A DNA stretch of 64,000 nucleotides, taken from NCBI RefSeq assembly GCF_001971725.1, contig NZ_CP019388.1, positions 1,488,001-1,552,000 of the forward strand. The letters are read 5' to 3'. Every line of letters begins with the position of its first letter. Within the stretch, counting starts at the first letter, position 1. The translations under genes were made by a program, and so were the position numbers. Below are positions 31,901 to 59,090 of the stretch, piece by piece. The notes under the pieces were generated by a model. The model searched no databases. It saw nothing but the letters and a program-made list of their open reading frames with translations, and was not told the origin of the DNA. This DNA is from Winogradskyella sp. J14-2 (GTDB lineage: Bacteria; Bacteroidota; Bacteroidia; Flavobacteriales; Flavobacteriaceae).

Positions 31901-32215
31901 TTACGCAGCCACAATTGAACCTGCAGATACCTGTATGGTTGCTGACTCTTCAGACTTAAAGTGATCATATAGCTCTTTACAACCTAAACCGACTATAGAT
32001 AGCTTTTTCGATTTTGTAATAGACTCATTATGCAATCTGGCCAAGGCCATTACACCAGCCCTATCAATACTTTCCACACTTTCAATATCAAGTAAGACAT
32101 TATCAAGTCTATCAAAAATATTAGCAAAATGCGAATTAAATGTTTTAAGACTTAATTTGTTTAATGTCCCTTTAATGTGAAAACGGTTGTTGTAATTGGT
32201 AATTTGTAAATCCAT
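31901..32215 (-). CDS. STAS-domain protein lacking the phosphoacceptor serine
   Basis: A 104-residue single STAS domain, the anti-sigma-factor-antagonist fold (FHIKGTLNKLSLKTFNSHF, VLLDIESVESIDRAGVMALARLH, KKLSIVGLG). In SpoIIAA-type antagonists the phosphorylated Ser follows the conserved Asp (DSxG); here the sequence is IDRAG, so that Ser is absent. It may act as a constitutive binding partner or scaffold rather than a phosphoswitch (inference). A related STAS protein with IDSTG lies at 33665-33943. A Bergerat kinase/RsbW partner is not seen nearby. Upstream DNA to 32430 (215 bases) has no gene. Confidence 0.8.
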   Translation of the reverse strand: MDLQITNYNNRFHIKGTLNKLSLKTFNSHFANIFDRLDNVLLDIESVESIDRAGVMALARLHNESITKSKKLSIVGLGCKELYDHFKSEESATIQVSAGSIVAA

Positions 32216-32430
32216 AATAAATAATGTTAAATCATTAATAATAAATTAGGGCTATTAATCTGTAAATCTGGTGCTATTAATTCTTAAGGGATGACTCTAA
32301 TATCTGACTATATATTCTCTACTCACCAGAAATTCGACAAATGGTGTTTTTGCTTAGATAATTTGAAATTGCATGTCTTTTTTTTCGATAAACAACACAT
32401 TTACAAACATATAGATTGTAAGAAAAATAA

Positions 32431-41066: not shown

Positions 41067-42539
41067 TTATGCGTTTGTTAAACTTTTCTTTTTATCTAAT
41101 TGCGGTGAAATAAACATAAACACCATAGTTACGTACATAAGAATACCTGATGGCATTTGTCCAAATACACCATTTCCGTAAGATGCCATCATTATACCTG
41201 CCATGCCACAGGTAAGCGCTGTAATCTGGACTTTTAAATTATTATCTTTTATTTTGAACATCACACTTCTGGCACCAGAAATGAGAATAAAAAACAGCAT
41301 AAACAAGTAATACACTAAGCCTACTGCGCCAGTATCTGCCCAAATCATCACGTACCAACTATCTGTTGCTGTATTGGCCAAAAAACTGTGTGGCGTAAAG
41401 CGTTGTCCCCAATTTCCTGTTGCACCTAGTCCGCCACCAAAAGGTCTTGAAGCCAAATAACCTTTAAGTTTTCTTTGATTAGCCAAACGTACTTGTAGCG
41501 ATGCTTCGTTAGGATCAAAAGCTGTTCGCATTCTTCTAATTTCAGCATTACCTTGCCCAATAGTTGTATGCGCAAAAAACACATAAACACCAATGCCTAA
41601 AATGGCACCCAAGACAAGAACTTTAATGTTTTTTCGAAGAATTAAAAACATAAAACCACCTAGAGCAGGCACAGCAATAGCGCCTCGTGTTCCAGAGATA
41701 AGCATCCCTAAAAAACCAGCCATTGCTACGCCAATAAAAAATGCTCTAAGTTTAAAACTTGTCTTTTTGAATACTGCCAAAATGCCAAACACAACGCCTG
41801 CGTGCGCTTGTGAAGCACCATATTGTCCTGCATCTGAATAGAATGAAAACACTCTAAGCTTGCCAAAAAGCACGTGTGTTTCTGCACCACCTTGATCTAG
41901 CCAACGCTGCTCAAAAGGGTCTACACCAAAATAGAATTGCTGCAGGCCTTTTAAAGTTCCTATTACCGAAAGAATGCCCCAAATAATGAAGAAATTATCT
42001 AAATCTTTCTGTTTATTAAAGAGCATAAACAGCAACGGAATGGCCAAAAATTGATATAAAGCAACACCTCGCATTGCATAAAACCAGGCTTCTCTACTTA
42101 ACACTTCTGGGTTGCCTAATTCTAAAAACACATAAGCCATCCATATGCTAACAACTAGAGTTAAGCTAGATTTTGCCTTAATCCACGGTAATTTTATTGC
42201 AAATCCTTTAAAAAATAAAGCCACATAAATAAGTACAAGAACAGCGTCTATAGTTAATCCCCAAGGTGCTACAACGTATCTAGCTGCACCTGTAACAAAA
42301 AAGCCTAAAATGATAAGTAGATAAATACCAACTTTAGGTGTTTTAAATACAGTGTAAACCAAAGCTGTTACAAACAATAAGCCCATACATAAAGTAAATC
42401 CTAAAACCTCGGTCTTTATAATAATAAGCCCTAAAACGCTTAATAACCCAACCACTGTAATTACGGTATTTAGGTTTGTAATACGCATAGAACCAGAATT
42501 AGTTTCAAAGGGATTTGTATGATTTTTTATGGTGTTCAT
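41067..42539 (-). CDS. O-antigen ligase/polymerase-like membrane protein (Wzy-type)
   Basis: A 490-residue polytopic membrane protein with about ten or more hydrophobic segments and a large loop containing RLANQRKLKGYLASRPFGGGLGATGN and FTPHSFLANTATDSWYVMIWADTG. This pattern fits the O-antigen ligase/Wzy polymerase superfamily that polymerises EPS repeat units. I place the start at ATG 42539 (MNTIKNHTNPF), because the -7 box at 42582-42589 lies between it and an alternative start at 42584. It is the first gene of its transcription unit, preceded by a LytTR-type site. Confidence 0.85.
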   Translation of the reverse strand: MNTIKNHTNPFETNSGSMRITNLNTVITVVGLLSVLGLIIIKTEVLGFTLCMGLLFVTALVYTVFKTPKVGIYLLIILGFFVTGAARYVVAPWGLTIDAVLVLIYVALFFKGFAIKLPWIKAKSSLTLVVSIWMAYVFLELGNPEVLSREAWFYAMRGVALYQFLAIPLLFMLFNKQKDLDNFFIIWGILSVIGTLKGLQQFYFGVDPFEQRWLDQGGAETHVLFGKLRVFSFYSDAGQYGASQAHAGVVFGILAVFKKTSFKLRAFFIGVAMAGFLGMLISGTRGAIAVPALGGFMFLILRKNIKVLVLGAILGIGVYVFFAHTTIGQGNAEIRRMRTAFDPNEASLQVRLANQRKLKGYLASRPFGGGLGATGNWGQRFTPHSFLANTATDSWYVMIWADTGAVGLVYYLFMLFFILISGARSVMFKIKDNNLKVQITALTCGMAGIMMASYGNGVFGQMPSGILMYVTMVFMFISPQLDKKKSLTNA

Positions 42540-42581
42540 TTTATGTTTTAAAAAAACTAGCTTACTGCTTGTTTTACACTG

Positions 42582-42648
42582 CAAACATAGCTTTAAGACA
42601 GAGAGAATTCTGTTAGATTTCGATGGGTGAACGTTAAGTGTAGACGAA
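42582..42648 (-). promoter_or_regulatory. LytTR-type double site plus TAnnTTTG promoter (site A, before wzy-like gene)
   Basis: On the minus strand, half-sites TTCGTCTACA (42648-42639) and CCCATCGAAA (42627-42618) start 21 bp apart. After 28 further bases comes TATGTTTG (42589-42582), a perfect Bacteroidetes -7 box. The wzy-like ATG is 43 bases on. The same geometry is found at 47256, 51430 and 58985. Confidence 0.78.
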
Positions 42649-42704
42649 TAGAAACCTAATATTGACGAAGCCGTTTTAACGTTTATAACTTTGAGTTTTA
42701 CCTA

Positions 42705-42736
42705 TAAAAAAAGCTACAACTTTTATAGTGTAGCTT
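42705..42736 (-). terminator. Terminator after the flippase gene
   Basis: On the minus strand AAGCTACA (42736-42729) pairs with TGTAGCTT (42718-42711) and is followed by a run of Ts. It lies 25 bases past the flippase stop and separates the TolC/Wzz/flippase unit from the next promoter. Confidence 0.88.
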
Positions 42737-42761
42737 ATAGCATTGCTATTAATCTCAACTT

Positions 42762-44132
42762 TTATAAATCAGGATATCTTCTTCTAAATTGCTTAGATTT
42801 AAACCATAAATTCTTGTAAAACAAATTGGCACTTTTGAAAATTTCGACTACAGAAACTTTAATGTTTTTATTGAGAAAATAGGCACCAACCACAATACCA
42901 ACGGTTGTAAAAACCAGTGTTGATACGGCGACCATTTCAATAGAATGAAATACGTAAATTGATACCAAATCACCTATAATATTTGCCACCAACATAACAA
43001 GCACCTTTATAGCGTTTATATTAGGTTTGTTAATGCTATCAAGACCAATTCCTGTCATTCTATCGATTGGTAATAACACACCATATATGGATAGTATTTT
43101 TACAATTGAAACGATGTTTATTCCTGTAATGGTTTCATCTAAATATTGTGTTCCTGAAATGAGAATTACAAATTCTTTAGCAAAAATAAAAGTGACTAGC
43201 GACACTGCAAAAAACAAATAGGTTATGGCGCCAGAATACACATTAAAGAGTTCTTTAACCTGATGAGGTTTTCCTTCCAAACTCGCTTTTGACATTTTTG
43301 GAAATGCTGTTGCGGTAAAACTTCGCAACGGTATTTGCTGTATTTCAGTCAACTTTAAAGGAATACTAAACAAAGCTACAGCCGTACTACCAAAAGGACT
43401 AATACTTATAATTAAAATGTCTGCGTTGCGCAATAAATTTGTACCAATTAGTGTGAATGTGCTATACTTTCCAAAATTGAGCAGTGTATTTAAAGTGGCT
43501 TTATTTGCTTTTTTATATAGTAATAAACCATCCCAAGATTTTCTAATACATACCAAAGACGTTAAGGTGTTAATTACTAAAAAAACAATTGTAATTTCTA
43601 AAATTGAACGTTTTAAAACCAGTGTATTTACCACCAAAAAACTAAAAAACAACCCACTACTTAAGGCTTTAATAAAAAGGATGTTATTATATTTCATTTT
43701 AGCCTGTTGTACTACAAGCGCATTGTTTAGCGGTAAATTTAAAAACGCCAAAACAGGATACCAATTAAAAAATAACGCATAAGACGACCCATTAATCGCA
43801 TTGCTAAATATTAGTTTTATTGTAATTAATAAGGTTGCTATTATCAATGTGGCAAAAACACTAATAACAACATTTGCACCAATAAATCTTTCTTTGTTTT
43901 GATCTGTAGCACCAGATAAAAATCTAACCAATCCATTGTTGGTAATACCGTAGCGTAGCATTTCTACTAATGATCCACCAGAGATAAACAGTACCCATTG
44001 TGCAAATTCTTCGGTGTCTAAACGTCTTGCCAACAGTGCAAATCCGCCAAAACCGAGTAATGCGATAACTAGGTTTCCTGACAAGGATAAAAAGTTATCT
44101 TCTCTAATTAGTCTATGTATTAGTTTTTTCAT
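42762..44132 (-). CDS. Polysaccharide flippase (Wzx-type, MOP superfamily)
   Basis: A 456-residue protein with about 12-14 membrane helices, matching the MOP/PST family that flips lipid-linked repeat units (SLSGNLVIALLGFGGFALLARRLDTEEFAQWVLFISG split at the N-terminus; NADILIISISPFGSTAVALFSIPLKLTEI in the middle). It is 2 bases after the Wzz-like gene, so it is translated with it. With the Wzy-like and Wzz-like proteins it makes a Wzx/Wzy-dependent EPS pathway. Family features are remembered, not searched. Confidence 0.88.
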   Translation of the reverse strand: MKKLIHRLIREDNFLSLSGNLVIALLGFGGFALLARRLDTEEFAQWVLFISGGSLVEMLRYGITNNGLVRFLSGATDQNKERFIGANVVISVFATLIIATLLITIKLIFSNAINGSSYALFFNWYPVLAFLNLPLNNALVVQQAKMKYNNILFIKALSSGLFFSFLVVNTLVLKRSILEITIVFLVINTLTSLVCIRKSWDGLLLYKKANKATLNTLLNFGKYSTFTLIGTNLLRNADILIISISPFGSTAVALFSIPLKLTEIQQIPLRSFTATAFPKMSKASLEGKPHQVKELFNVYSGAITYLFFAVSLVTFIFAKEFVILISGTQYLDETITGINIVSIVKILSIYGVLLPIDRMTGIGLDSINKPNINAIKVLVMLVANIIGDLVSIYVFHSIEMVAVSTLVFTTVGIVVGAYFLNKNIKVSVVEIFKSANLFYKNLWFKSKQFRRRYPDL

Positions 44133-47428: not shown

Positions 47429-48616
47429 CTATACTGTACTTTTCTGAAATAATGCAGGTATGGTGCTAAGCAAAATTTTTATATCAAACCAAAATGAGTA
47501 GTTGTTACCTGTAAAATAATCAGCATATTTATTATCTAATGCTATTCGTTCCTCTTCAGACATATTGCCACCTTTCCCTCTAAGTTCTACTTGCCAAATT
47601 CCTGTAATTCCAGCAGGTGCTAAAAAGCGTTTAGACAGTTGGTCTTTGGTTAAGCACTCTGCCTCATAAACTGGCAATGGTCTATTACCTACTAAAGACA
47701 TATCACCTTTTATGACGTTAATTAACTGCGGCAACTCATCTATACTTGTATTTCTTATAACCTTACCAATTTTTGTAATTCTTGGATCGTCTACAATTTT
47801 GATGAAACTAGATTTTTTGTTCTGAGCCACTTCTTTGCGATAATTATACATATAGTCGCAAACTTTCTCATTTTCAGCATATTTTAACGGTGAGCAATAA
47901 TAACCTTCTGGCAATTTTGCACATTCAGGACACGGTTGGTCTTCTTTTAAATCTTCATTTTCAGTTAAAGTGTTGCTATACTGATTTTTTTTGGCGGCTA
48001 ACTCTTTTAATAATTTATCTGAGCCTTCTTTCATAGAACGCAGCTTATAAAAATCAAAGGTTTTTCTACCAACACGTTTTGCAGTGTAGTAAACTTTCCC
48101 TTTAGATTCTAATCGAATAGCCAGAATAGTTACTAACAAAAATGGCGATAATACAATAAGTATTGATGAGGCTACTACAACATCAAAGATGCGTTTTGAT
48201 AACGGAATTTTGTAAGATACTTTAGCGTTTATTTTGCCGTTCTCAACTTTAGTTTCAGAATTTTGTTTTGCTAAAACCTGGCATCTTTCAGTAATTTGTT
48301 TTTTAGACGTTGTTGTAAGTACAAAAAAGTCGTTTACACCAGCCTGAAATGCTTTTTTAAATACCGTTTGATTGTATTCCTTTACTAAAAGAATGAATGG
48401 AATTTTTGCGAGGTTTTCTTCTTTTAGCTTATTGTAGAAAAACAAGCCGTTGTTTCCGGTTAATTCGTAATCTGAAACTACAACATCTATTTTTGTGCTA
48501 GATTTAAGTATCTTGATAGCTTCTAACCCATTTCGTTTTACGATAACAGCTGTCTTTTTTTCTTCTTTTAACTGATTGATTAATTCTAAATCGTTTCCTA
48601 CGTAAAGTACTTTCAT
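47429..48616 (-). CDS. Receiver-like domain fused to EPS-initiating sugar transferase (WcaJ/WbaP type)
   Basis: A 395-residue fusion. Residues 1-120 look like a response-regulator receiver (VLYVGND, VVVSDYELTG with Asp49, LLVKEYN), but the second acidic residue and the switch Thr/Ala-Lys motif are weak, so it may be degenerate. A membrane helix (about 146-168) leads into a bacterial sugar transferase: VGRKTFDFYKLRSM, IVDDPRITKIGKVIRNTSIDELPQ, GDMSLVGNRP and GITGIWQVELRGKGG. An insert carries CPEC, YYC and VCDYM, possibly a metal site. The transferase should load the first sugar-1-phosphate onto undecaprenyl phosphate, starting EPS synthesis. Confidence 0.9.
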   Translation of the reverse strand: MKVLYVGNDLELINQLKEEKKTAVIVKRNGLEAIKILKSSTKIDVVVSDYELTGNNGLFFYNKLKEENLAKIPFILLVKEYNQTVFKKAFQAGVNDFFVLTTTSKKQITERCQVLAKQNSETKVENGKINAKVSYKIPLSKRIFDVVVASSILIVLSPFLLVTILAIRLESKGKVYYTAKRVGRKTFDFYKLRSMKEGSDKLLKELAAKKNQYSNTLTENEDLKEDQPCPECAKLPEGYYCSPLKYAENEKVCDYMYNYRKEVAQNKKSSFIKIVDDPRITKIGKVIRNTSIDELPQLINVIKGDMSLVGNRPLPVYEAECLTKDQLSKRFLAPAGITGIWQVELRGKGGNMSEEERIALDNKYADYFTGNNYSFWFDIKILLSTIPALFQKSTV

Positions 48617-50032: not shown

Positions 50033-51397
50033 TTAACCCACTAGTTCTAAACTTTTATTTGTTTCTTTTTTTGTTTGAACTGTTTTAACACCAATACAAG
50101 AATATTGGTAACCAAGATTGTGCATCTCTTCTTTATCGTAGATGTTTCTTCCATCAAAAACAACCGCTTCGTTTAACAGGTGTTTCATTATTTTAAAGTT
50201 AGGAATCTTAAACTCTGACCATTCTGTTAGTACTGCCAAACAATCTGCACCAATTAAAGCTTCGTATTGTTCTTCACAATAATTTATTGTATCACCAAAA
50301 TGATGTTTTGCCTCTTCTGCTGCAACAGGGTCGTATGCATTTACAGTTGCACCAGCCGCAAGTAATTCCTTTATGATTTGTAATGATGGTGCTTCACGCA
50401 TATCATCGGTTTGTGGTTTAAAGGATAATCCCCAAACTGCAATGGTTTTCCCTCTTAAATCACCTTTAAAATGTGAATTTATTTTATTGAACAACACTAA
50501 CTTCTGAGATTTATTTACAGCCTCAACCGCTTTAAGCACTTGTAGTTCGTATTTGTTTTCGCTTGCTGTTCTAATTAGAGCTTGTACATCTTTAGGAAAG
50601 CAAGATCCGCCGTAACCAATACCTGGATAAATAAATTTTGTACCGATACGAGAATCTGAACCAATACCTTTTCTAACATTATTAATATCCGCACCAACAA
50701 CTTCACATAAGTTTGCAATATCATTGATGAAACTAATTTTAGTTGCCAACATTGCGTTTGCAGCATACTTTGTCATTTCAGCAGAAACGATATCCATAAA
50801 AATTATGGGATGACCATTTAATGTAAATGGCTTGTAAAGTTTGTTAAGTAATTTTTCTGCTCTTTCACTTTCTGTACCAACTACAATGCGGTCTGGTTTC
50901 ATAAAATCGTCAATTGCAGCACCTTCTTTTAAAAATTCTGGGTTTGAAGCTACATCAAACGGAATGTCTGTCTTACGTTTATCCAACTCTTCTTGAACTG
51001 CATTTTTCACTTTTATTGAGGTACCAACTGGTACTGTACTTTTTGTTACGATTAGTTTATAATCGTTCATAGTTCTACCACACTCGCGTGCTACAGCCAA
51101 TACGTGTTTTAAATCTGCACTACCATCTTCATCTGGTGGTGTACCTACACTTATAAATACCACTTCAGAATCTGATATAGAATCTGCTAAACTGGTTGAA
51201 AAGCTCAATCGGTTTTTTTCCATATTACGCGTAATCATTTTTTCTAATCCTGGTTCGTAAATGGGAATGATGCCATTGTTTAAGTTGTCTATTTTCTTTT
51301 TGTCAACATCAACACATACAACGTCGATACCTACTTCCGAAAAACAAGCGCCTGTAACTAAGCCTACATAGCCACTTCCTACAATTGTTATTTTCAT
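50033..51397 (-). CDS. ugd: UDP-glucose 6-dehydrogenase
   Basis: A 454-residue enzyme oxidising UDP-glucose to UDP-glucuronate with two NAD+. Motifs: [15 protein letters not shown] at the N-terminus, [17 protein letters not shown], the catalytic Cys in [14 protein letters not shown] (about residue 264) and [16 protein letters not shown] in the C-terminal domain. Full length for the family. It is the first gene of its EPS transcription unit, with LytTR-type site C 69 bases upstream. Confidence 0.95.
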
Positions 51398-51429
51398 AAT
51401 TAATGGTTTTTAGTTTTTAAATTCTGGGG

Positions 51430-51496
51430 CAAACTTAGTTGCGATGGCACTGTTAGTTCAATAAATTTCGATGGGTAAACAGTAAGTGTAGACCAA
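51430..51496 (-). promoter_or_regulatory. LytTR-type double site plus TAnnTTTG promoter (site C, before ugd)
   Basis: On the minus strand, half-sites TTGGTCTACA (51496-51487) and CCCATCGAAA (51475-51466) start 21 bp apart. After 28 bases comes TAAGTTTG (51437-51430), 33 bases before the ugd ATG. Same geometry as sites A, B and F. Confidence 0.78.
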
Positions 51497-51651
51497 TGGA
51501 CAATAACAATTGGTGTTTTGTTTTACAGTAAAACAGATTGGATTTAGGCAGCTGTTTTAACGTACAAAGTGAGTATTTAGTTTTCTGAAGTTGTTTGCTT
51601 TAAGCTCAAATCTAAAAAAAGGAGATTGCTTTTAAGACATAGATTACTTAT

Positions 51652-51687
51652 AAAAAACAAAAGGCAAAAACTAAGGTTTTTGCCTTT
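51652..51687 (-). terminator. Strong terminator in the long ugd-LytTR gap
   Basis: On the minus strand AAAGGCAAAAAC (51687-51676) pairs perfectly with GTTTTTGCCTTT (51671-51660) over a 4-base loop, then TTGTTTTTTA. There is no gene between this and the LytTR-operon terminator at 51974, so it must end another transcript. Confidence 0.88.
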
Positions 51688-51849
51688 CTGACTGCGTTAT
51701 TAATTAGGGTTAAATAATAATCGATTATGAAGTATTAAAACACTACTTACTACTGTGCGTTTGTGCTGTTAATCATTTTTTTGAAAGACAAAGGCTTTCG
51801 CCTTTGCCTTTTCAAACCATCAATCCAAAAACCATAAAAACTTATGATC
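51652..51849 (-). ncRNA. Candidate small structured RNA between ugd and the LytTR operon
   Basis: The 747-base gap 51398-52144 has no convincing gene. Within it, a TAnnTTTG match (TACTTTTG, minus strand 51863-51856) is followed by about 200 bases ending at a strong terminator. The candidate contains a long hairpin at 51780-51816: a 16-bp stem with one wobble and one bulge, closed by a GAAA tetraloop. Only tiny frames exist (for example MINSTNAQ). No -33 TTG is seen, so the promoter is uncertain. It does not match a riboswitch I know. Confidence 0.4.
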
Positions 51850-51973
51850 CTCTCACAAAAGTAGTATTAAAGGATACTGTAAGCCTCTACTTTTTGTTGA
51901 ATGGACTTAATCTACATATAGAATGCAATTATGTGTCGACGAACGGTAACTGAGTTGTATTTTTTAATCAAAT

Positions 51974-52006
51974 AAAAAAGGCAGAACGCTCTTTGCGTCT
52001 GCCTTT
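51974..52006 (-). terminator. Terminator of the H-NOX-kinase-LytTR operon
   Basis: On the minus strand AAAGGCAGACGC (52006-51995) pairs with GCGTTCTGCCTTT (51989-51977), one bulged base, followed by a T-run. It lies about 140 bases after the LytTR stop. Confidence 0.87.
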
Positions 52007-52125
52007 AATTGCTATTAATTCAATATTTAAACCTACCTTTTTGAATATGGTACAAATATAGAGTAGGTACTTGAGTAAAGGCACTATAATTCGCTAGTTA
52101 TCCTTATTGAAACGTTGAATAGCGA

Positions 52126-52138
52126 TTTAGTGTCGGTG
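52126..52138 (-). repeat. 13-bp motif, copy 2 (YACCGACRCTAAA)
   Basis: CACCGACACTAAA on the minus strand, 6 bases beyond the LytTR stop. Related copies are at 35822-35834 (TACCGACACTAAA) and 58021-58033 (TACCGACGCTAAA), all on the minus strand. The other two lie 60-105 bases upstream of genes, which suggests a regulator site; this copy has no gene directly downstream. Confidence 0.5.
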
Positions 52139-52144
52139 AGTTGT

Positions 52145-52858
52145 TTATAACAGGTTTAATCGCTTCATTAATTCTGGACGGTTAGAGCGACTTACCGGAA
52201 CAACATCCTTTTTAATTAACACGCTATTGTCTTCTATATCGATGATTTTATCGACATTAATAATATAAGAACGGTGAATTTTTAAGAATAGACTATCTGG
52301 TAATTTATCTTCAATCTTTTTTAAAGTAGAATGAACGGTATAATTCTTATTTTCTGTTTTAATTTGAATATAATCTCCTTTAGCTTCTACCAAGTAAATG
52401 CTCGGAATGTCTATTTTAATAAGGCGTCTATCTATATTGACGTAAAGATCATTACCTGAGGTGGTTTCTACCTCATCTGAAGTTTTTGGTTTTGCCTCGA
52501 TTGGCTGTGTAGTGCTTTCAGCCTTTTGTATAGCTTTAGCAAAGCGTTCTGGTGTGATGGGTTTTACCAAATAATCTACAATACAATCGTACTCAAAAGC
52601 CTGTATAGCAAAATTGGCATCTGATGTAGTTAATATTATTTTTGGAGGATTCTTGATGGTTTCAATAAAATCGAAACCTGTAAAATCTGGCATATGAATA
52701 TCTAGTAAAATTAAATCTACTTCATTTTGGTTGAGATATTTTATGGCCTGGATGGCGTTTGGAAATTCTGCGAGAACGTTAAGGTTAGTTACATTGGAAC
52801 AAAGTTGGGATATAATTGCTCTTGCTGTTGCTTCATCATCAATAATTATACAATTCAT
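52145..52858 (-). CDS. LytTR-family response regulator
   Basis: A 237-residue response regulator. The receiver domain has DDE (7-9), phosphoacceptor Asp53 (LILLDIHMPDFTG), ILTTSDANFAIQAF and DYLVKPITPERF. A linker (about 130-145) leads to a LytTR DNA-binding domain (LIKIDIPSIYLVEAKGDYIQIKTENKNYTVHSTLKKI in part, and LFLKIHRSYIINVDKI). LytTR proteins bind imperfect direct repeats about 21 bp apart near promoters. Sites of that form lie upstream of the EPS and signalling genes in this window, so it is the likely regulator. It ends the H-NOX operon, 9 bases after the Hpt gene. Confidence 0.95.
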   Translation of the reverse strand: MNCIIIDDEATARAIISQLCSNVTNLNVLAEFPNAIQAIKYLNQNEVDLILLDIHMPDFTGFDFIETIKNPPKIILTTSDANFAIQAFEYDCIVDYLVKPITPERFAKAIQKAESTTQPIEAKPKTSDEVETTSGNDLYVNIDRRLIKIDIPSIYLVEAKGDYIQIKTENKNYTVHSTLKKIEDKLPDSLFLKIHRSYIINVDKIIDIEDNSVLIKKDVVPVSRSNRPELMKRLNLL

Positions 52859-53189: not shown

Positions 53190-54338
53190 TTATTTTTTTA
53201 TAGTAAAAAAGAATGTTGTGCCCTCACTGACTTTAGAAGTTAACCAAATATTTCCGCCATATATATCTACGATTTTCTTTGCTATAGATAAACCTATTCC
53301 GGTAGATTCTAGATTATTTTCAAGTTTCTCAAAGGTGTTAAAAATTTTATCAAAATACTTTTTTTCTATGCCTTTGCCGTTGTCTTTAACATAAAACTGC
53401 CAAAAGTGGTTTTTCTCCTGGACACCTATTTCAATGATCCCTTTTTCCTTGTCGTTATAGTTTAAGGCATTGGTAATTAAATTCTGAAACAACTGTTGCA
53501 GCCTGTATTTATCGCCTCTAATAACCGGCAGATTTCTTTTTATAATTGAAAAATGACTTGGTACATGTAGGCTTTCTGAAATATCGTCTATAAGCTTGTT
53601 GGTATCTACATCATAAACTTCAACTTTGTTTTTACCAATCGTAGAATATTCTAATATACCATTTATTAGTGCATCCATTTTATCTACACTACTGCGAATT
53701 AATCCTAGACTTTCCTTTCCTTTATCATCTAACTTAGCGTCGTAATCTTCTTTTAACCACGTTGCTAAGGAATCTATACTACGCAAAGGCGATTTTAAAT
53801 CGTGAGATACCATGTGTGCATAGTCACTTAACTCTTTGTTTTGCACCTCTAAATTATTAAGCAGTTGTTCTTGCTCTTTAAATGCTTTACATGCTTTGAG
53901 GTTGATTGTAAATTTACTTATTACCGGTTCTAGTTGCAATACATCTTTTTTGGTAAGATTATCTTTTTTTGAATATAAAAACAAATAGCCTCCATCTTGT
54001 AAATTAAATATTGCGGTTATACCTCCATCTATAGCAATTGGCGCCATGGTTGAAATCTCATTACCAGAACTAACTATTTGTGCAAAATCTATATGATCTA
54101 GTAGCGCTGATTTGGCTTCATCTTTTTCTACTTCAATTTCTTTACCCAGCGGAATAGCATAAGTAGACTTTAGCACATTGTCTCTAGACTCTAAAATCCA
54201 AGCTGCATTGAGGTTTTTTCGCTTTAGTACAAGTTTAAGAAAAAGGTCACAACTTTCTTTATAATCTAAAGACTTTCCTATAGCCATAGCGTACTCATAA
54301 AGTTGCAATATGTCTAATATGTGGTCTTCTATTTTCAT
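53190..54338 (-). CDS. Sensor histidine kinase with GAF-like N-terminus
   Basis: A 382-residue cytoplasmic histidine kinase with no membrane segments. Residues 1-160 look like a GAF-type sensor (LDILQLYEYAMAIGKSLDYKESCDLFLKLVLK). HisKA carries the phosphorylated His in YAHMVSHDLKSPLRSID (near residue 180). HATPase motifs: NLITNALNYN, DNGKGIEKKYFDKIF, GIGLSIAKKIVDIYGG and GTTFFFTI. The start shares one base with the FIST stop (TAATG). By analogy with NO pathways, its activity may be set by the FIST protein (inference). Confidence 0.93.
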   Translation of the reverse strand: MKIEDHILDILQLYEYAMAIGKSLDYKESCDLFLKLVLKRKNLNAAWILESRDNVLKSTYAIPLGKEIEVEKDEAKSALLDHIDFAQIVSSGNEISTMAPIAIDGGITAIFNLQDGGYLFLYSKKDNLTKKDVLQLEPVISKFTINLKACKAFKEQEQLLNNLEVQNKELSDYAHMVSHDLKSPLRSIDSLATWLKEDYDAKLDDKGKESLGLIRSSVDKMDALINGILEYSTIGKNKVEVYDVDTNKLIDDISESLHVPSHFSIIKRNLPVIRGDKYRLQQLFQNLITNALNYNDKEKGIIEIGVQEKNHFWQFYVKDNGKGIEKKYFDKIFNTFEKLENNLESTGIGLSIAKKIVDIYGGNIWLTSKVSEGTTFFFTIKK

Positions 54339-55435
54339 TATTCAAACAATCCTACAACTATGGTTTTATTATAAAACTCTAAAAAGCCTTCGCCATAAGA
54401 TGAAATTTCGCCTAATGTTAATGCACCTCCAATAGATACATTATTAAAACTCTCTTCTAAAGTACCAGTTACTGCCGACAACTCTTTATCAAAATTTTTG
54501 TCTAGAAATAAAATCCTCGAGATGCAGTCTATAAGAATAGCTTTTCTTGGGGCTGATGCTTGCTTAATGCTCTCTTGAGTTGCTGACTTAGCTGCCTGTA
54601 TTAATGATTCTTCATTTCCGTTTAGAATATCGACAACCGTATTATCCTCTAACTCGCCAACACAAACTATTTCTCCTTTTTCATTTACCATTAATGGGTC
54701 TCTAACGATACACTCGGCACTTTCTTTTAGAATTCCAAAAGGATAGCCCTTAGCGATTTCAAAGAAATTATCTTCTGTAAAGATTTTACCAGAGTGTTCT
54801 TCTACAGTTTCCTTATAGACTTCAAAAGGATTTTTCCAGTTTATCTCTTTTATAATATTACCTTCAGCTCTTGTAACAATAAAGGGGCCAGCCACCTTAC
54901 TCCAGCCGTGTTTTACACCAATACTAGATGACATTTTCATTATGCCAAAAACGGCTGCATCTTTAAAAACACCTTCGTTATTAAACACACATGGCTGCTG
55001 TTTTAACGACAGGCTCCCTGCGCCTCCACCAAAGTAAGTAGTTTGCATTCCGTAATTTTCGTAAAGCTTACTTAAGTAATGCGAAATATTGGATGTTAAA
55101 CCATCTACATAAGTAAAAAGGCTATAGTTTTGGTCTTTTTCAAAATTAACTTTAGGTATGGTATAGCTTTTAGAACTTATGTTGTTTATTAAGAACATAG
55201 AATCTAACTTATTTAGTGTATTAACTACAATACCTTTATCTAAAATAGAATTACCATGAATAACTTTTGGAAACAACCCACCCATAAACTTTAGTCCCGC
55301 ATCATTAAGTTGACCAATTATATCTTTTATATCAATTTCCGTCTGCTCTCCAATAGTAATTAAAGCAGCATTTTTACCTACGTGATTAGAAATTGCATTT
55401 ACAATTTCAGAAGTTTTTGTTGTTGTTATTAGCAT
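54338..55435 (-). CDS. FIST-domain sensory protein (possible NosP-like NO sensor)
   Basis: A 365-residue cytoplasmic protein with FIST_N (about residues 25-210) and FIST_C (about 215-350, KAILIDCISRILFLDKNFDKEL, GGALTLGEISSYGEGFLEFYN). FIST proteins bind small ligands; a subgroup called NosP binds heme and senses nitric oxide, usually next to a histidine kinase. The conserved VKHGWSKVAGPFIV is present, but heme binding cannot be shown from sequence. It lies between two histidine kinases and in the same operon as H-NOX, so a second NO sensor or an amino-acid/ligand sensor are both possible. Confidence 0.9.
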   Translation of the reverse strand: MLITTTKTSEIVNAISNHVGKNAALITIGEQTEIDIKDIIGQLNDAGLKFMGGLFPKVIHGNSILDKGIVVNTLNKLDSMFLINNISSKSYTIPKVNFEKDQNYSLFTYVDGLTSNISHYLSKLYENYGMQTTYFGGGAGSLSLKQQPCVFNNEGVFKDAAVFGIMKMSSSIGVKHGWSKVAGPFIVTRAEGNIIKEINWKNPFEVYKETVEEHSGKIFTEDNFFEIAKGYPFGILKESAECIVRDPLMVNEKGEIVCVGELEDNTVVDILNGNEESLIQAAKSATQESIKQASAPRKAILIDCISRILFLDKNFDKELSAVTGTLEESFNNVSIGGALTLGEISSYGEGFLEFYNKTIVVGLFE

Positions 55436-55436
55436 A

Positions 55437-57419
55437 CTATTTTGTTAATGTAAAATGAAATGTGGTGCCTACACCTGGTGTGCTCTCCAACCATATTTTA
55501 CCATCGTGGAGATCAACTATTTTTTTTACTATAGAAAGACCTACGCCTGTTGAGTCTTTACTTTTATTTAGTGAGTGAAATATTTTAAAAATTTTATTGT
55601 GAAACTTTTCTTCAATACCAATACCATTATCTGAGATTGAAAATTGATAGTGGTATGGTAATTCCTTTAGTTTTATATCTATTTTTCCCTTTGGCTTATC
55701 AATAAATTTAACAGCGTTACTAATAAGGTTTTGAAACAATTGCTGAAGCTTGGTTTTTTCGCCAGTAAGGACAGGTAACTTATCATGAATTTTAACCTCT
55801 ATATGCTCTGGAATATATAATATTTTTAATAGGTCTTTAACCATAGTATCTGTATTTACTGGTTTGCTTTGACCTTTCTCTGACCTAATACTGGAGTATT
55901 CTAAAACATCTGAAATTAGTTGCTCCATCTTCTCTAGCGTCGTTTCTATAAGATTTAAATTTTGTAAACTTGCATCGTCGAGCTTATTCTCATTGTCTTC
56001 TTTAATCCATTGTACCAAAGCATCAATACTGCGTAATGGCGACTTTAAATCGTGAGACACTATGTGCGCGTATTCTTGCAACTCGTCATTACTTTTTTCG
56101 AGTTTATGGAGTAGGTTTTCTTTTTGTAACTCAAGACTTTTCAGGTCTGTAATATCTAAATGGATACCTATTGAGCCAACGACCTTTCCGTTAATATCGT
56201 AATTTGGGGCACCACTGATTAGCCAATATCTTGTTTCGCCATTTTTTATTTTTACTTTAATCTCGTAGGAATTTGATTCGCCTTTTAAACGTTTTTTACT
56301 CTCGTTTTTAATCTTTTGAACTTCCTTGTCTGTTGTAAAGATTTTTCTTCCTTGCTTGCCAATGAGTTCTTTTTCGGTATAACCAGAAATTTCTGCAAAA
56401 CTCTGATTAATCATGAGTATACGATCGTTGTTGTCCACTTCCATTAATCCCAAATTCATATTGGCAATAATGTTTCTGTACTTTTCGCGCTCTACCTCAA
56501 TACTGTGTCGGTATTTTCTGCTTAATGTAACATCTCTATATCTCCATAAATGGCCTTTGTATGTTGCATCACTAAAGACGGGAATATAATCGCGTTCAAG
56601 GATGTTTCCATTTAGCATTTTTAACTCATCACCGATAACCAATTCCTTTTTTTCTACAATATCGTTGATTCTTTTTACAAAACCTTCTGAATTAGAAAAC
56701 ATATCTTTACTTTGCTGGGCGGAGTTGGTACAGTCTTCACCTACCAATTGACTGGGCTTTAGAGGTATGTTAAATAAGTCACAAAATTTGTTATTTGTAA
56801 GTATTATTTTTCTGTTCTCATCTTCGAGCAAAACTCCAGAGTCTAAATTACGTATTAGTGTAGAAAGTCTATTTTTTGATTCAATTAGCTGCTCTTCTGC
56901 TTGTTTATCTTTGGTAATATCTCTAACAATACCTTGTGCTGCTATAGGCTTGTTGTCTGGTCCTAATATAATGCTGGCATTGATTTGAACCAGTTTTTGT
57001 TCGCCAAATTTAGTATTAATCTTTACTTGAAAGTTGGTAACAGCACCTTCGGACATTAAAAGGTCAAAGGCTTCCATTACGTTGTCTATCTCAGTTTGGT
57101 CTGCTAAAGTTACAAGGTTAAAGTCTTCCTCTTTTTTATCGTACCCTAAGAGATGTACTGCTGCATCATTCATCTTTAGAACATTACCCCATAAATCCAT
57201 AACTACATATGCATCGATGATATTTTCAAAAACACCCTTTAGCTCTAATGTGCGTTCTTTAACTAGTTTTTCGAGCTTAGTATTAGATGTTTTTAATTTT
57301 TGGGTAAGATTATAGAGTTCCGTAGATTTTTCTTCGAGAATTTTTTCAGCTGCTTTTCTAGAAGCCCTTTCGCGTGCTAAAGCTCTTTTTAGAATGTCTA
57401 TCTCATCGTGTTGGTTCAT
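55437..57419 (-). CDS. PAS-domain sensor histidine kinase (H-NOX partner)
   Basis: A 660-residue cytoplasmic kinase. An N-terminal coiled coil (about 1-60) is followed by three PAS domains (about 65-180, 190-300, 310-425), the last with PAC motif NGETRYWLISGAPNYDINGKVVGSIGIHLDIT in part. HisKA has the His in YAHIVSHDLKSPLRSID (near 455), followed by NLISNAVKFID, DNGIGIEEKFHNKIF and GVGLSIVKKIVDLHDG. It overlaps the H-NOX gene by 4 bases (ATGA), implying coupled translation; H-NOX proteins typically regulate their adjacent kinase. No receiver domain is attached. Confidence 0.94.
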   Translation of the reverse strand: MNQHDEIDILKRALARERASRKAAEKILEEKSTELYNLTQKLKTSNTKLEKLVKERTLELKGVFENIIDAYVVMDLWGNVLKMNDAAVHLLGYDKKEEDFNLVTLADQTEIDNVMEAFDLLMSEGAVTNFQVKINTKFGEQKLVQINASIILGPDNKPIAAQGIVRDITKDKQAEEQLIESKNRLSTLIRNLDSGVLLEDENRKIILTNNKFCDLFNIPLKPSQLVGEDCTNSAQQSKDMFSNSEGFVKRINDIVEKKELVIGDELKMLNGNILERDYIPVFSDATYKGHLWRYRDVTLSRKYRHSIEVEREKYRNIIANMNLGLMEVDNNDRILMINQSFAEISGYTEKELIGKQGRKIFTTDKEVQKIKNESKKRLKGESNSYEIKVKIKNGETRYWLISGAPNYDINGKVVGSIGIHLDITDLKSLELQKENLLHKLEKSNDELQEYAHIVSHDLKSPLRSIDALVQWIKEDNENKLDDASLQNLNLIETTLEKMEQLISDVLEYSSIRSEKGQSKPVNTDTMVKDLLKILYIPEHIEVKIHDKLPVLTGEKTKLQQLFQNLISNAVKFIDKPKGKIDIKLKELPYHYQFSISDNGIGIEEKFHNKIFKIFHSLNKSKDSTGVGLSIVKKIVDLHDGKIWLESTPGVGTTFHFTLTK

Positions 57420-57958
57420 AGTGTCTTTTTAATAAAAAAACGTACTTCTGTACCAGCTTTATTTAGTTTTTTAAAATTAATTTCTACCGGTGTTTTGAAA
57501 AGCTTAAATGTTTCTTGCATAAGACCCATGCCTAACATATACAAAGCTTTATCTGATTTGTAAACCAAAGTCATCTCATTTGCTGTTCTGTCTTCTAATT
57601 GAAAGGTTGGCAATTGTGCATCTGGATAAATTTTTTGTACTTCTACATGGATATGACTTTCTATAGAAGCCAGTAAACTCATAGGATCCTCGTAGTGCTC
57701 TACGAGATTTGGGTGCGATCGCACAAGCGCCTTAAACAAATGCTCTGAGTAAACTAGTAATAAATCGTCTTTTGAAATATCCGTGTGTTTACTTAAGTGT
57801 GTAAGCAGTTGAAGCATTTCTGAAAACTCATAAGTTCCTACTGATGTATAGATGCCACCAGATGGCAGTTGGGACTGGGTTATGATTTTATCTACCATAG
57901 CTAATCCAAACTTTTCTTCTACTAGTTCTAAAAACTCGGTAAATATTAGTCCTTTCAT
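57416..57958 (-). CDS. H-NOX heme-nitric oxide/oxygen binding protein
   Basis: A 180-residue H-NOX domain, a cytoplasmic heme sensor of NO (and in some cases O2). The start MKGLIFTEFLELVEEKFG and GIYTSVGTYEFSEML are family hallmarks. The proximal heme ligand is predicted as His104 in SHIHVEVQKIYPD. The heme-propionate motif YxSxR reads YKSDK (Tyr133, Ser135, Lys137), so Arg is replaced by Lys. It is the first gene of the six-gene signalling operon and overlaps the PAS kinase by 4 bases. NO ligation should alter kinase activity. Confidence 0.92.
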   Translation of the reverse strand: MKGLIFTEFLELVEEKFGLAMVDKIITQSQLPSGGIYTSVGTYEFSEMLQLLTHLSKHTDISKDDLLLVYSEHLFKALVRSHPNLVEHYEDPMSLLASIESHIHVEVQKIYPDAQLPTFQLEDRTANEMTLVYKSDKALYMLGMGLMQETFKLFKTPVEINFKKLNKAGTEVRFFIKKTL

Positions 57959-58598: not shown

Positions 58599-58955
58599 CT
58601 ATGCAGCTTTAAAAGACTGTTTATTTAATATTTTAGCCATTTTTAGTGCGGATAGTTGTGCTTCGCGCTTAGTTTTTTCGAATTCTAGAAGAAACTCAAC
58701 GGATAAACTATTATAATTATTTTCACCCAGATACATCTCTAGTTGTGATATAAAGTCTAAATGTTTAAGGCTTTTATTTAAAATAGCATGATTCTTTTGA
58801 TCAATCTTTTCGCTCGAAGTTTGTGCTGTTACAGTACCTTTTTCTTCTGTGTTATTAGAACTAAAAATCGGGTTATTATGTCTGCTAGCCTTTATTATTT
58901 TGCGTATACTTAATACGATTTTTAGCTTTGCTAGTTGTTTGAGTAGATTGCTCAT
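58599..58955 (-). CDS. Hypothetical protein, probable LytTR-regulon member
   Basis: A 118-residue protein of unknown function. It is predicted to be mostly helical and basic at the N-terminus (NLLKQLAKLKIVLSIRKIIKASRH), with a low-complexity Ser/Thr/Glu-rich middle (about 35-55) and a helical C-terminus. No signal, metal or catalytic motif is visible. It is preceded by LytTR-type site F with a perfect TAnnTTTG box, so it should be expressed with the EPS genes. It may be an EPS accessory or regulatory protein. Confidence 0.7.
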   Translation of the reverse strand: MSNLLKQLAKLKIVLSIRKIIKASRHNNPIFSSNNTEEKGTVTAQTSSEKIDQKNHAILNKSLKHLDFISQLEMYLGENNYNSLSVEFLLEFEKTKREAQLSALKMAKILNKQSFKAA

Positions 58956-58984: not shown

Positions 58985-59051
58985 CAAATTTAAAACCTCA
59001 AGTATCTCTAAAATACGTTTTTTAGACGAGTTAACATTTGTGAGCGACGAA
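58985..59051 (-). promoter_or_regulatory. LytTR-type double site plus TAnnTTTG promoter (site F)
   Basis: On the minus strand, half-sites TTCGTCGCTC (59051-59042) and CTCGTCTAAA (59030-59021) start 21 bp apart; after 28 bases comes TAAATTTG (58992-58985), 29 bases before the ATG at 58955. The spacing equals that of sites A-C although the base sequence is more divergent. Confidence 0.72.
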
Positions 59052-59090
59052 TGGAAGATTCTACCCTTTAACCCGAATTACAAGTATAAT

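Follow-up and report, generated by a model that had tools for sequence, protein, structure and literature searches.

Two putative tandem small RNA genes, probably LytTR-switched, in the gap between lytTR and ugd of Winogradskyella sp. J14-2

In Winogradskyella sp. J14-2, the gene for a LytTR response regulator (lytTR, 52145-52858, minus strand) and ugd (50033-51397, minus strand) are separated by a gap of 747 nt (51398-52144; positions refer to the window, that is, the whole 64,000-nt stretch of DNA analysed), and the question raised by this locus is what such a gap contains. An earlier note had proposed that a single independent small structured RNA lies here, with the regulator operon on one side and the EPS cluster on the other, delimited by a TAnnTTTG match and a strong terminator and with a hairpin in between. 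All three elements were recovered on the minus strand: the TAnnTTTG match is TACTTTTG, the GAAA hairpin has 7 + 9 = 16 pairs with a 1-nt bulge in the minimum free energy (MFE) fold, and the terminator has 13 pairs followed by a U tract. The 212-nt stretch that they span has an MFE of -54 kcal/mol (z = -3.70, equalled by 0 of 200 shuffles), and a 3-kb region holds 5 terminator-like sites against a shuffle mean of 1.4. An independent small RNA is still the best reading of this stretch, but it needs correcting: its boundaries are probably around 51851-51778, position 51652 being the end of a read-through form, it forms a tandem with another unit, its promoter is of a type that LytTR would regulate, and the far terminator is the relic of a T9SS gene. 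The other unit, of like kind and overlooked before, has its own -7 box (TATATTTG) and a terminator ending at about 51967, and at first glance resembles a mere terminator of the lytTR operon. Our reading, which we hold to be probable, is that the gap contains two tandem small non-coding RNA genes, each with an activator-type promoter and a Rho-independent terminator, that would be switched by LytTR and act in trans without Hfq (Table 1).

Table 1. Features of the locus, in window coordinates. R1 is a covariance model whose training set held both window units; identities are means over six genomes, and the six used for unit 1 differ partly from the six used for unit 2.
Feature	Position	Strand	Basis or remark
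T9SS gene 3' end relic	51652-51745	-	last codons (now out of frame), 3'UTR, terminator 51688-51659, U tract to 51652
ugd promoter, same type	51430-51501	-	TCCATTGGTCTACAC, 62 nt, TAAGTTTG; box 51437-51430; predicted 28-nt 5'UTR
Same promoter type before wzy-like EPS gene 41067-42584	42582-42654	-	TATGTTTG, 62 nt
Same promoter type at sensor operon head	58985-59057	-	TAAATTTG, 62 nt; first ORF 58599-58955
Predicted read-through form of RNA 2	51851 to 51652	-	about 200 nt
Small RNA 2 (predicted, about 74 nt)	51778-51851	-	ranked second in the genome by R1 (E 1.3e-6)
GAAA hairpin, terminator-like	51780-51816	-	relatives have a longer U tract, that of the window being degraded
Unpaired conserved core, candidate seed, unit 2	51817-51836	-	TATGGTTTTTGGATTGATGG, 20 nt; identity 0.93
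-7 box, unit 2	51856-51863	-	TACTTTTG; predicted RNA start 51851
Third repeat, unit 2	51891-51900	-	TTCAACRAA; identity 0.88; adjoining spacers 0.44 and 0.39
Second repeat, unit 2	51919-51931	-	TTGCATTC; identity 0.85
First LytTR-type repeat, unit 2	51932-51951	-	ACCGTTCGTCGACAC; mean pairwise identity 0.84; 83 nt before -7 box; putative LytTR binding
Predicted small RNA 1, about 81 nt, own terminator	51967-52048	-	ranked first in the genome by R1 (E 3.6e-7)
Core of RNA 1	52034-52010	-	AGGTTTAAATATTGAATTAATAGCA; identity 0.84
Promoter of RNA 1	52053-52144	-	degenerate LytTR-type repeats behind lytTR stop; -7 box TATATTTG 52060-52053
LytTR response regulator, proposed activator	52145-52858	-	Pfam Response_reg + LytTR
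Hpt phosphotransfer protein, 105 aa	52868-53185	-	invariant VHKLKHKISILGL; predicted fold
Kinase	53190-54338	-	Pfam
FIST/NosP-like protein	54338-55435	-	Pfam; NosP model E 5e-7, far under cut-off
PAS kinase	55437-57419	-	Pfam
H-NOX (HNOB) protein, proposed nitric-oxide sensor	57416-57958	-	Pfam HNOB E 1.1e-35

The first line of evidence for this reading is the way in which the parts of unit 2 are conserved. The unit is present in six of the 68 genus genomes (J14-2 itself, G083, G036, G001, G077 and G070), so that the check on conservation in relatives proposed in the earlier note came out positive: among these genomes identity is 84-88% in the repeats and 93% in the core, compared with 74% for the hairpin and 39% and 44% for the spacers. 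A pairing seed would give just this picture, in which the unpaired stretch stays strongly conserved while the stem next to it drifts. The -7 box is only 0.62 identical across the six genomes, with the boxes shifted by 1-2 bases in the alignment. The predicted start was placed according to the position of the box in Flavobacterium psychrophilum (-12 to -5), as given in the accessible part of PMC9723704. A covariance model built without unit 2, the training of which did include unit 1 of those genomes, recovered unit 2 in each of the six, at E values between 5.4e-7 and 6.3e-4. The copy in the window gave the weakest score (37.5 bits, E 6.3e-4) and, since the U tract of its hairpin is degraded as well, it may be decaying here. 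In unit 1, the corresponding identities among six genomes, partly different ones, are 84% for the core, 62% for the terminator and 45% for the spacer. The terminator stem shows two-sided changes in 11 of 11 pairs, with covariation scores reached by 0 of 500 shuffles, and the conserved hairpin is followed by a U tract, as in an intrinsic terminator, the tract of the GAAA hairpin in the window being weak. The 5' part of the units folds barely better than shuffles (mean z -0.52), and a candidate 5' stem-loop before the core was rejected; RNAalifold predicts the terminator stem alone. No Rfam 15 family reached its gathering score in the element, the sole match in the window being a tRNA elsewhere, and plasmid and phage collections gave no match.

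Units of this kind are also found behind lytTR in many relatives (Winogradskyella and other Flavobacteriaceae carry the locus), where LytTR-type repeats sit at the stop codon, the -7 box comes roughly 84 nt after them, and a terminator hairpin lies some 50 nt beyond the box. Once overlapping copies of identical loci had been removed, a count over 67 of 86 lytTR intergenic regions, namely those of at least 180 nt, found a -7 box 78-92 nt behind the lytTR stop together with a terminator hairpin in 20 regions (0 in 100 shuffles), and a unit anywhere in the region in 29 (shuffle mean 0.05); the script filter was strict and missed unit 1 of the window because of its imperfect stem. Alignment A1 comprises 35 of 39 listed units (L047, L055, L086 and L097 were left out), and alignment A3 comprises 28 of these 35, the omitted rows being the six of unit 2 and that of the second unit in L102. 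In two loci of other lineages (L102, 5797-6074, and L049, 5799-6084) pairs of tandem units lie between lytTR and the T9SS gene, and their second units appear to be separate ones.

The units are closely tied to the regulator gene. A lytTR gene was detected at E <= 1e-90 in 46 of the 68 genus genomes, and 69 of the 71 model matches at E < 1e-3 in the genus, which were transferred by hand before positions were counted, lie downstream of lytTR and on its strand. Forty-seven of these 69 are located within 1.2 kb of lytTR and cover 35 of the 46 lytTR genomes, and the other 22 lie at 2.7-3.8 kb, which in the loci examined is the end of the T9SS gene; six of the 46 genomes lack a nearby match at E < 1e-3. 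This count partly reflects the training, for which units adjacent to lytTR were used; after allowing for this bias, matches are still almost absent from other places and from genomes devoid of lytTR, the 22 such genomes giving no match better than 8.4e-4. In a draw from the family, only 9 of 249 genomes matched at E <= 1e-4, so that the small-RNA family in this form is narrow, its strong matches being confined to a clade. The third-ranked match in the J14-2 genome (3068523) was discarded, being an ordinary terminator downstream of a UspA-like gene.

A second line of evidence is provided by the phasing of the promoters. In 63 deduplicated promoters the distance from CCRTTNGTC to TAnnTTTG is 61-63 or 82-84 nt; the tally before deduplication comprised 64 pairs at these distances and three at other spacings of up to 122 nt, the loci having been scanned in the given orientation only. 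When the window was scanned on both strands at the rule spacings with up to two mismatches, four sites were found, all within the locus: one for unit 2, one for ugd, one for the wzy-like gene and one where the sensor operon begins. The last of these is likely to mean autoregulation. A similar site was observed upstream of the H-NOX operon in G001 (L205). A looser pattern, CATTNGTC-N(53-76)-TAnnTTTG, found seven places in the whole genome, two of them in the locus with the proper spacing; as a reversed control gave the same number, a pattern as loose as this is by itself unspecific. The repeats resemble the direct repeats expected for LytTR proteins, and their proximity suggests that the adjacent LytTR protein binds them. 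Judged from its sequence, each unit would have a promoter of its own with a regulator site, a terminator of its own and a place beside a regulator gene, as befits a small RNA driven by a response regulator.

The nature of the signal that might reach LytTR is suggested by the genes upstream of it. The 105-aa protein encoded next to lytTR, present in 64 of 80 loci, had no Pfam match and no meaningful NCBIfam match, and a sequence search of the PDB gave one weak match, to an Hpt domain (E 0.98). The comparison of folds was decisive for taking it as an Hpt protein: its AlphaFold model (pLDDT 93.8) has Hpt domains as its nearest solved folds (first three at TM, by query, 0.70-0.78, E 0.04-0.08), and VHKLKHKISILGL is invariant in all 28 aligned sequences, that is, 27 of the relatives' plus that of the window. 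By domains and fold, the operon contains the H-NOX and FIST sensors, the kinases and the Hpt protein of an H-NOX/NosP relay, with the FIST protein falling short of the NosP equivalog cut-off. This content, together with LytTR, leads us to read the operon as a nitric-oxide phosphorelay, and the gene set probably senses nitric oxide, which would then be the signal.

These elements could be integrated in a model in which the H-NOX/FIST-kinase-Hpt relay would feed the adjacent LytTR response regulator. LytTR, in turn, would most likely activate both RNAs, through LytTR-type repeats placed about 20 nt apart ahead of TAnnTTTG in each predicted unit, as well as the EPS promoters and the operon to which it belongs, and each transcript would end at its own Rho-independent terminator. 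The RNAs may then pair in trans with mRNAs by means of their conserved unpaired cores (GGUUUAAAUAUUGAAUUAAUAGCA; UAUGGUUUUUGGAUUGAUGG), Hfq presumably not being needed, and so tune further mRNAs, LytTR itself presumably governing EPS or T9SS surface genes along with the two RNAs. The pair of RNAs may help to switch the surface sugar coat and surface proteins. The second RNA of J14-2 probably also has the longer form, reading through to the terminator of the relic T9SS gene. A search for Hfq gave no match in the J14-2 genome and a match in 5 of 14 control genomes. As regards candidate targets, the 12-nt complement of the unit-2 core occurs at 15 places in the six genomes, of which five are the RNA gene itself and ten lie in or beside unrelated coding sequences, with no 5' site shared among the six. 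A repeated site in a fructose-bisphosphate-aldolase gene (three genomes) was rejected because it has the same sense and cannot pair. Duplex energies against 49 genes of the window placed ugd at rank 10 of 49, a value equalled by 145 and 201 of 1000 shuffles, which is chance level.

Several other explanations for the gap have to be weighed. One is that the element is what survives of a T9SS surface-protein gene after loss of its body, namely promoter, 3' end and terminator, giving at most a functionless transcript. The far terminator, said in the earlier note to end no known gene, does lack such a gene at present and nevertheless has a gene history: the sequence 51745-51652 matches, in the same sense, the tails of T9SS surface-protein genes in G010, G034, G003, G032, G035 and others. 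The T9SS-sorted protein concerned (Pfam domains DUF6923 and Por_Secre_tail) has no gene copy in the J14-2 genome, which is why the orphan terminator is regarded as a gene relic, and was matched in six of eight other genomes searched (four at 77% identity or more, and two at 36-40%, a distant paralogue). In addition, the promoter of the T9SS gene in L006 lies 195 to 277 nt from lytTR, the same distance as that of unit 2 (198 to 281 nt), and the degraded U tract of the GAAA hairpin would fit such a loss. However, the relic accounts for the far terminator and not for the core, the conservation of which stands far above that of the spacers; unit 2 resembles unit 1 in the held-out search, and the five other genomes retain it ahead of T9SS-type genes. 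The same relic follows unit 2 in these five genomes too and must therefore be old. We consider it unlikely that decay of this kind explains the whole unit. It could also be argued that the motif before the terminator is a 3'UTR signal shared by the regulon, concerned with stability or with the binding of an RNA-binding protein, and that the short RNAs serve as decoys or sponges for the same factor. Indeed, free RNAs are not the only carriers of the motif, given that the model also scores at T9SS mRNA 3'UTRs (the 22 of 69 lytTR-linked matches at 2.7-3.8 kb) and at the 3' end behind a wzx-like gene (42703-42791, minus strand; 36.4 bits with R1 and 36.8 bits with R2), where GATTAATAGCAA precedes a terminator and resembles the core of the small RNAs. 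Much of the score at these places, however, derives from the common AAGGCAAAAG..CTTTTGCCTT terminator, and the core letters vary, which leaves this an improbable explanation.

The place of the element ahead of ugd, with which it shares the strand, and the terminator at its end might evoke a cis-acting leader or attenuator of ugd. Yet ugd has a promoter of the same type for itself, from which a leader of only 28 nt is predicted, and the arrangement seen here is not general: T9SS-type genes follow the unit in the five other unit-2 genomes, four of which have only ugd paralogues at 39-40% identity (no match was obtained in the fifth, whose assembly is 83% complete), and in L050 ugd lies behind lytTR and unit 2 is absent. 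Among 80 loci (L041-L120, counted by hand), the gene after lytTR alternates, being of the T9SS surface-protein type in 62 and the EPS-cluster ugd in seven, with neither within the fetched stretch in 11. A function as a ugd leader is accordingly very hard to credit. As for a short peptide gene, the leaderless-transcript alternative of the earlier note, an ATG is present in the core in all six genomes, but neither its frame nor its length is kept, as the reading in the window ends after 7 codons and that in L002 is frame-shifted (by eye, alignment A2), and the minus-strand ORFs of at least 20 aa in the element start with TTG only; the chance that a peptide is encoded appears close to negligible.

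Small RNAs placed next to a response regulator have a precedent in Vibrio, in which qrr1 adjoins luxO. The tandem small RNA genes proposed here would be arranged much as in the Vibrio LuxU-LuxO-Qrr system with its H-NOX/HqsK input, in which, according to the accessible text of PMC6759604, kinases and H-NOX act through an Hpt protein on a response regulator and then on several small RNAs. In the present locus, in contrast, LytTR would replace the sigma-54 activator LuxO, the neighbours are EPS and T9SS genes, and the links are those proposed above. Qrr RNAs act with Hfq, which was not found in this genome, and no Qrr family appeared in the Rfam 15 search, either at gathering score or among matches up to E 10. 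Within Bacteroidota, FopS/GibS of Bacteroides, as far as the available portion of PMC11697453 describes them, are likewise short paralogous small RNAs with sigma-ABfr-type promoters and surface-related functions, FopS indicating that paralogous small RNAs work in this phylum; set against the present units by description, they comprise 14 dispersed members, and that portion does not report an adjacent response regulator. Rfp18 of F. psychrophilum, for which the accessible part of PMC9723704 gives stem-loops, confirmed expression and an effect on secreted proteases, is also flavobacterial and is likened to these units by description, identity with them being neither shown nor excluded. Candidate small RNAs of F. 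columnare were also without Rfam matches in the part consulted of PMC5395568, and a search of the open-licence PMC literature yielded no description of the present family. The reported H-NOX/NosP systems share with this locus H-NOX and FIST-domain proteins beside kinases and Hpt (PMC6759604 and PMC8738867, in the excerpts available), the difference being that the output here would pass through a LytTR regulator with linked small RNA units and that the FIST protein is far under the NosP cut-off.

For H-NOX/NosP-type signalling in marine Bacteroidota, the locus suggests an output that can be tested. It also provides a small RNA family with a named candidate activator and candidate sites, and its promoter rule (repeats, 61-63 or 82-84 nt, TAnnTTTG) gives a means of mapping the regulon. 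A bolder proposal, which we put forward tentatively as a possibility open to considerable doubt, is that a nitric-oxide phosphorelay driving a LytTR-dependent tandem small RNA family in an Hfq-less lineage of Flavobacteriaceae might be an independent counterpart of LuxO-Qrr and that, with the pre-terminator motif also on the 3' ends of surface mRNAs of the regulon, the small RNAs and these mRNA ends might form one RNA-level circuit.

Two further observations were made in the window. In the EPS cluster, the gene at 47429-48616 (minus strand) encodes a receiver fused to a bacterial sugar transferase (Pfam Response_reg and Bac_transf), a fusion that might put the priming enzyme under control by phosphorylation. 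In addition, two tandem copies of ATTAATAGC are found at 32251-32285 (minus strand), just upstream of a small gene at 31901-32215 that is STAS-like by eye.
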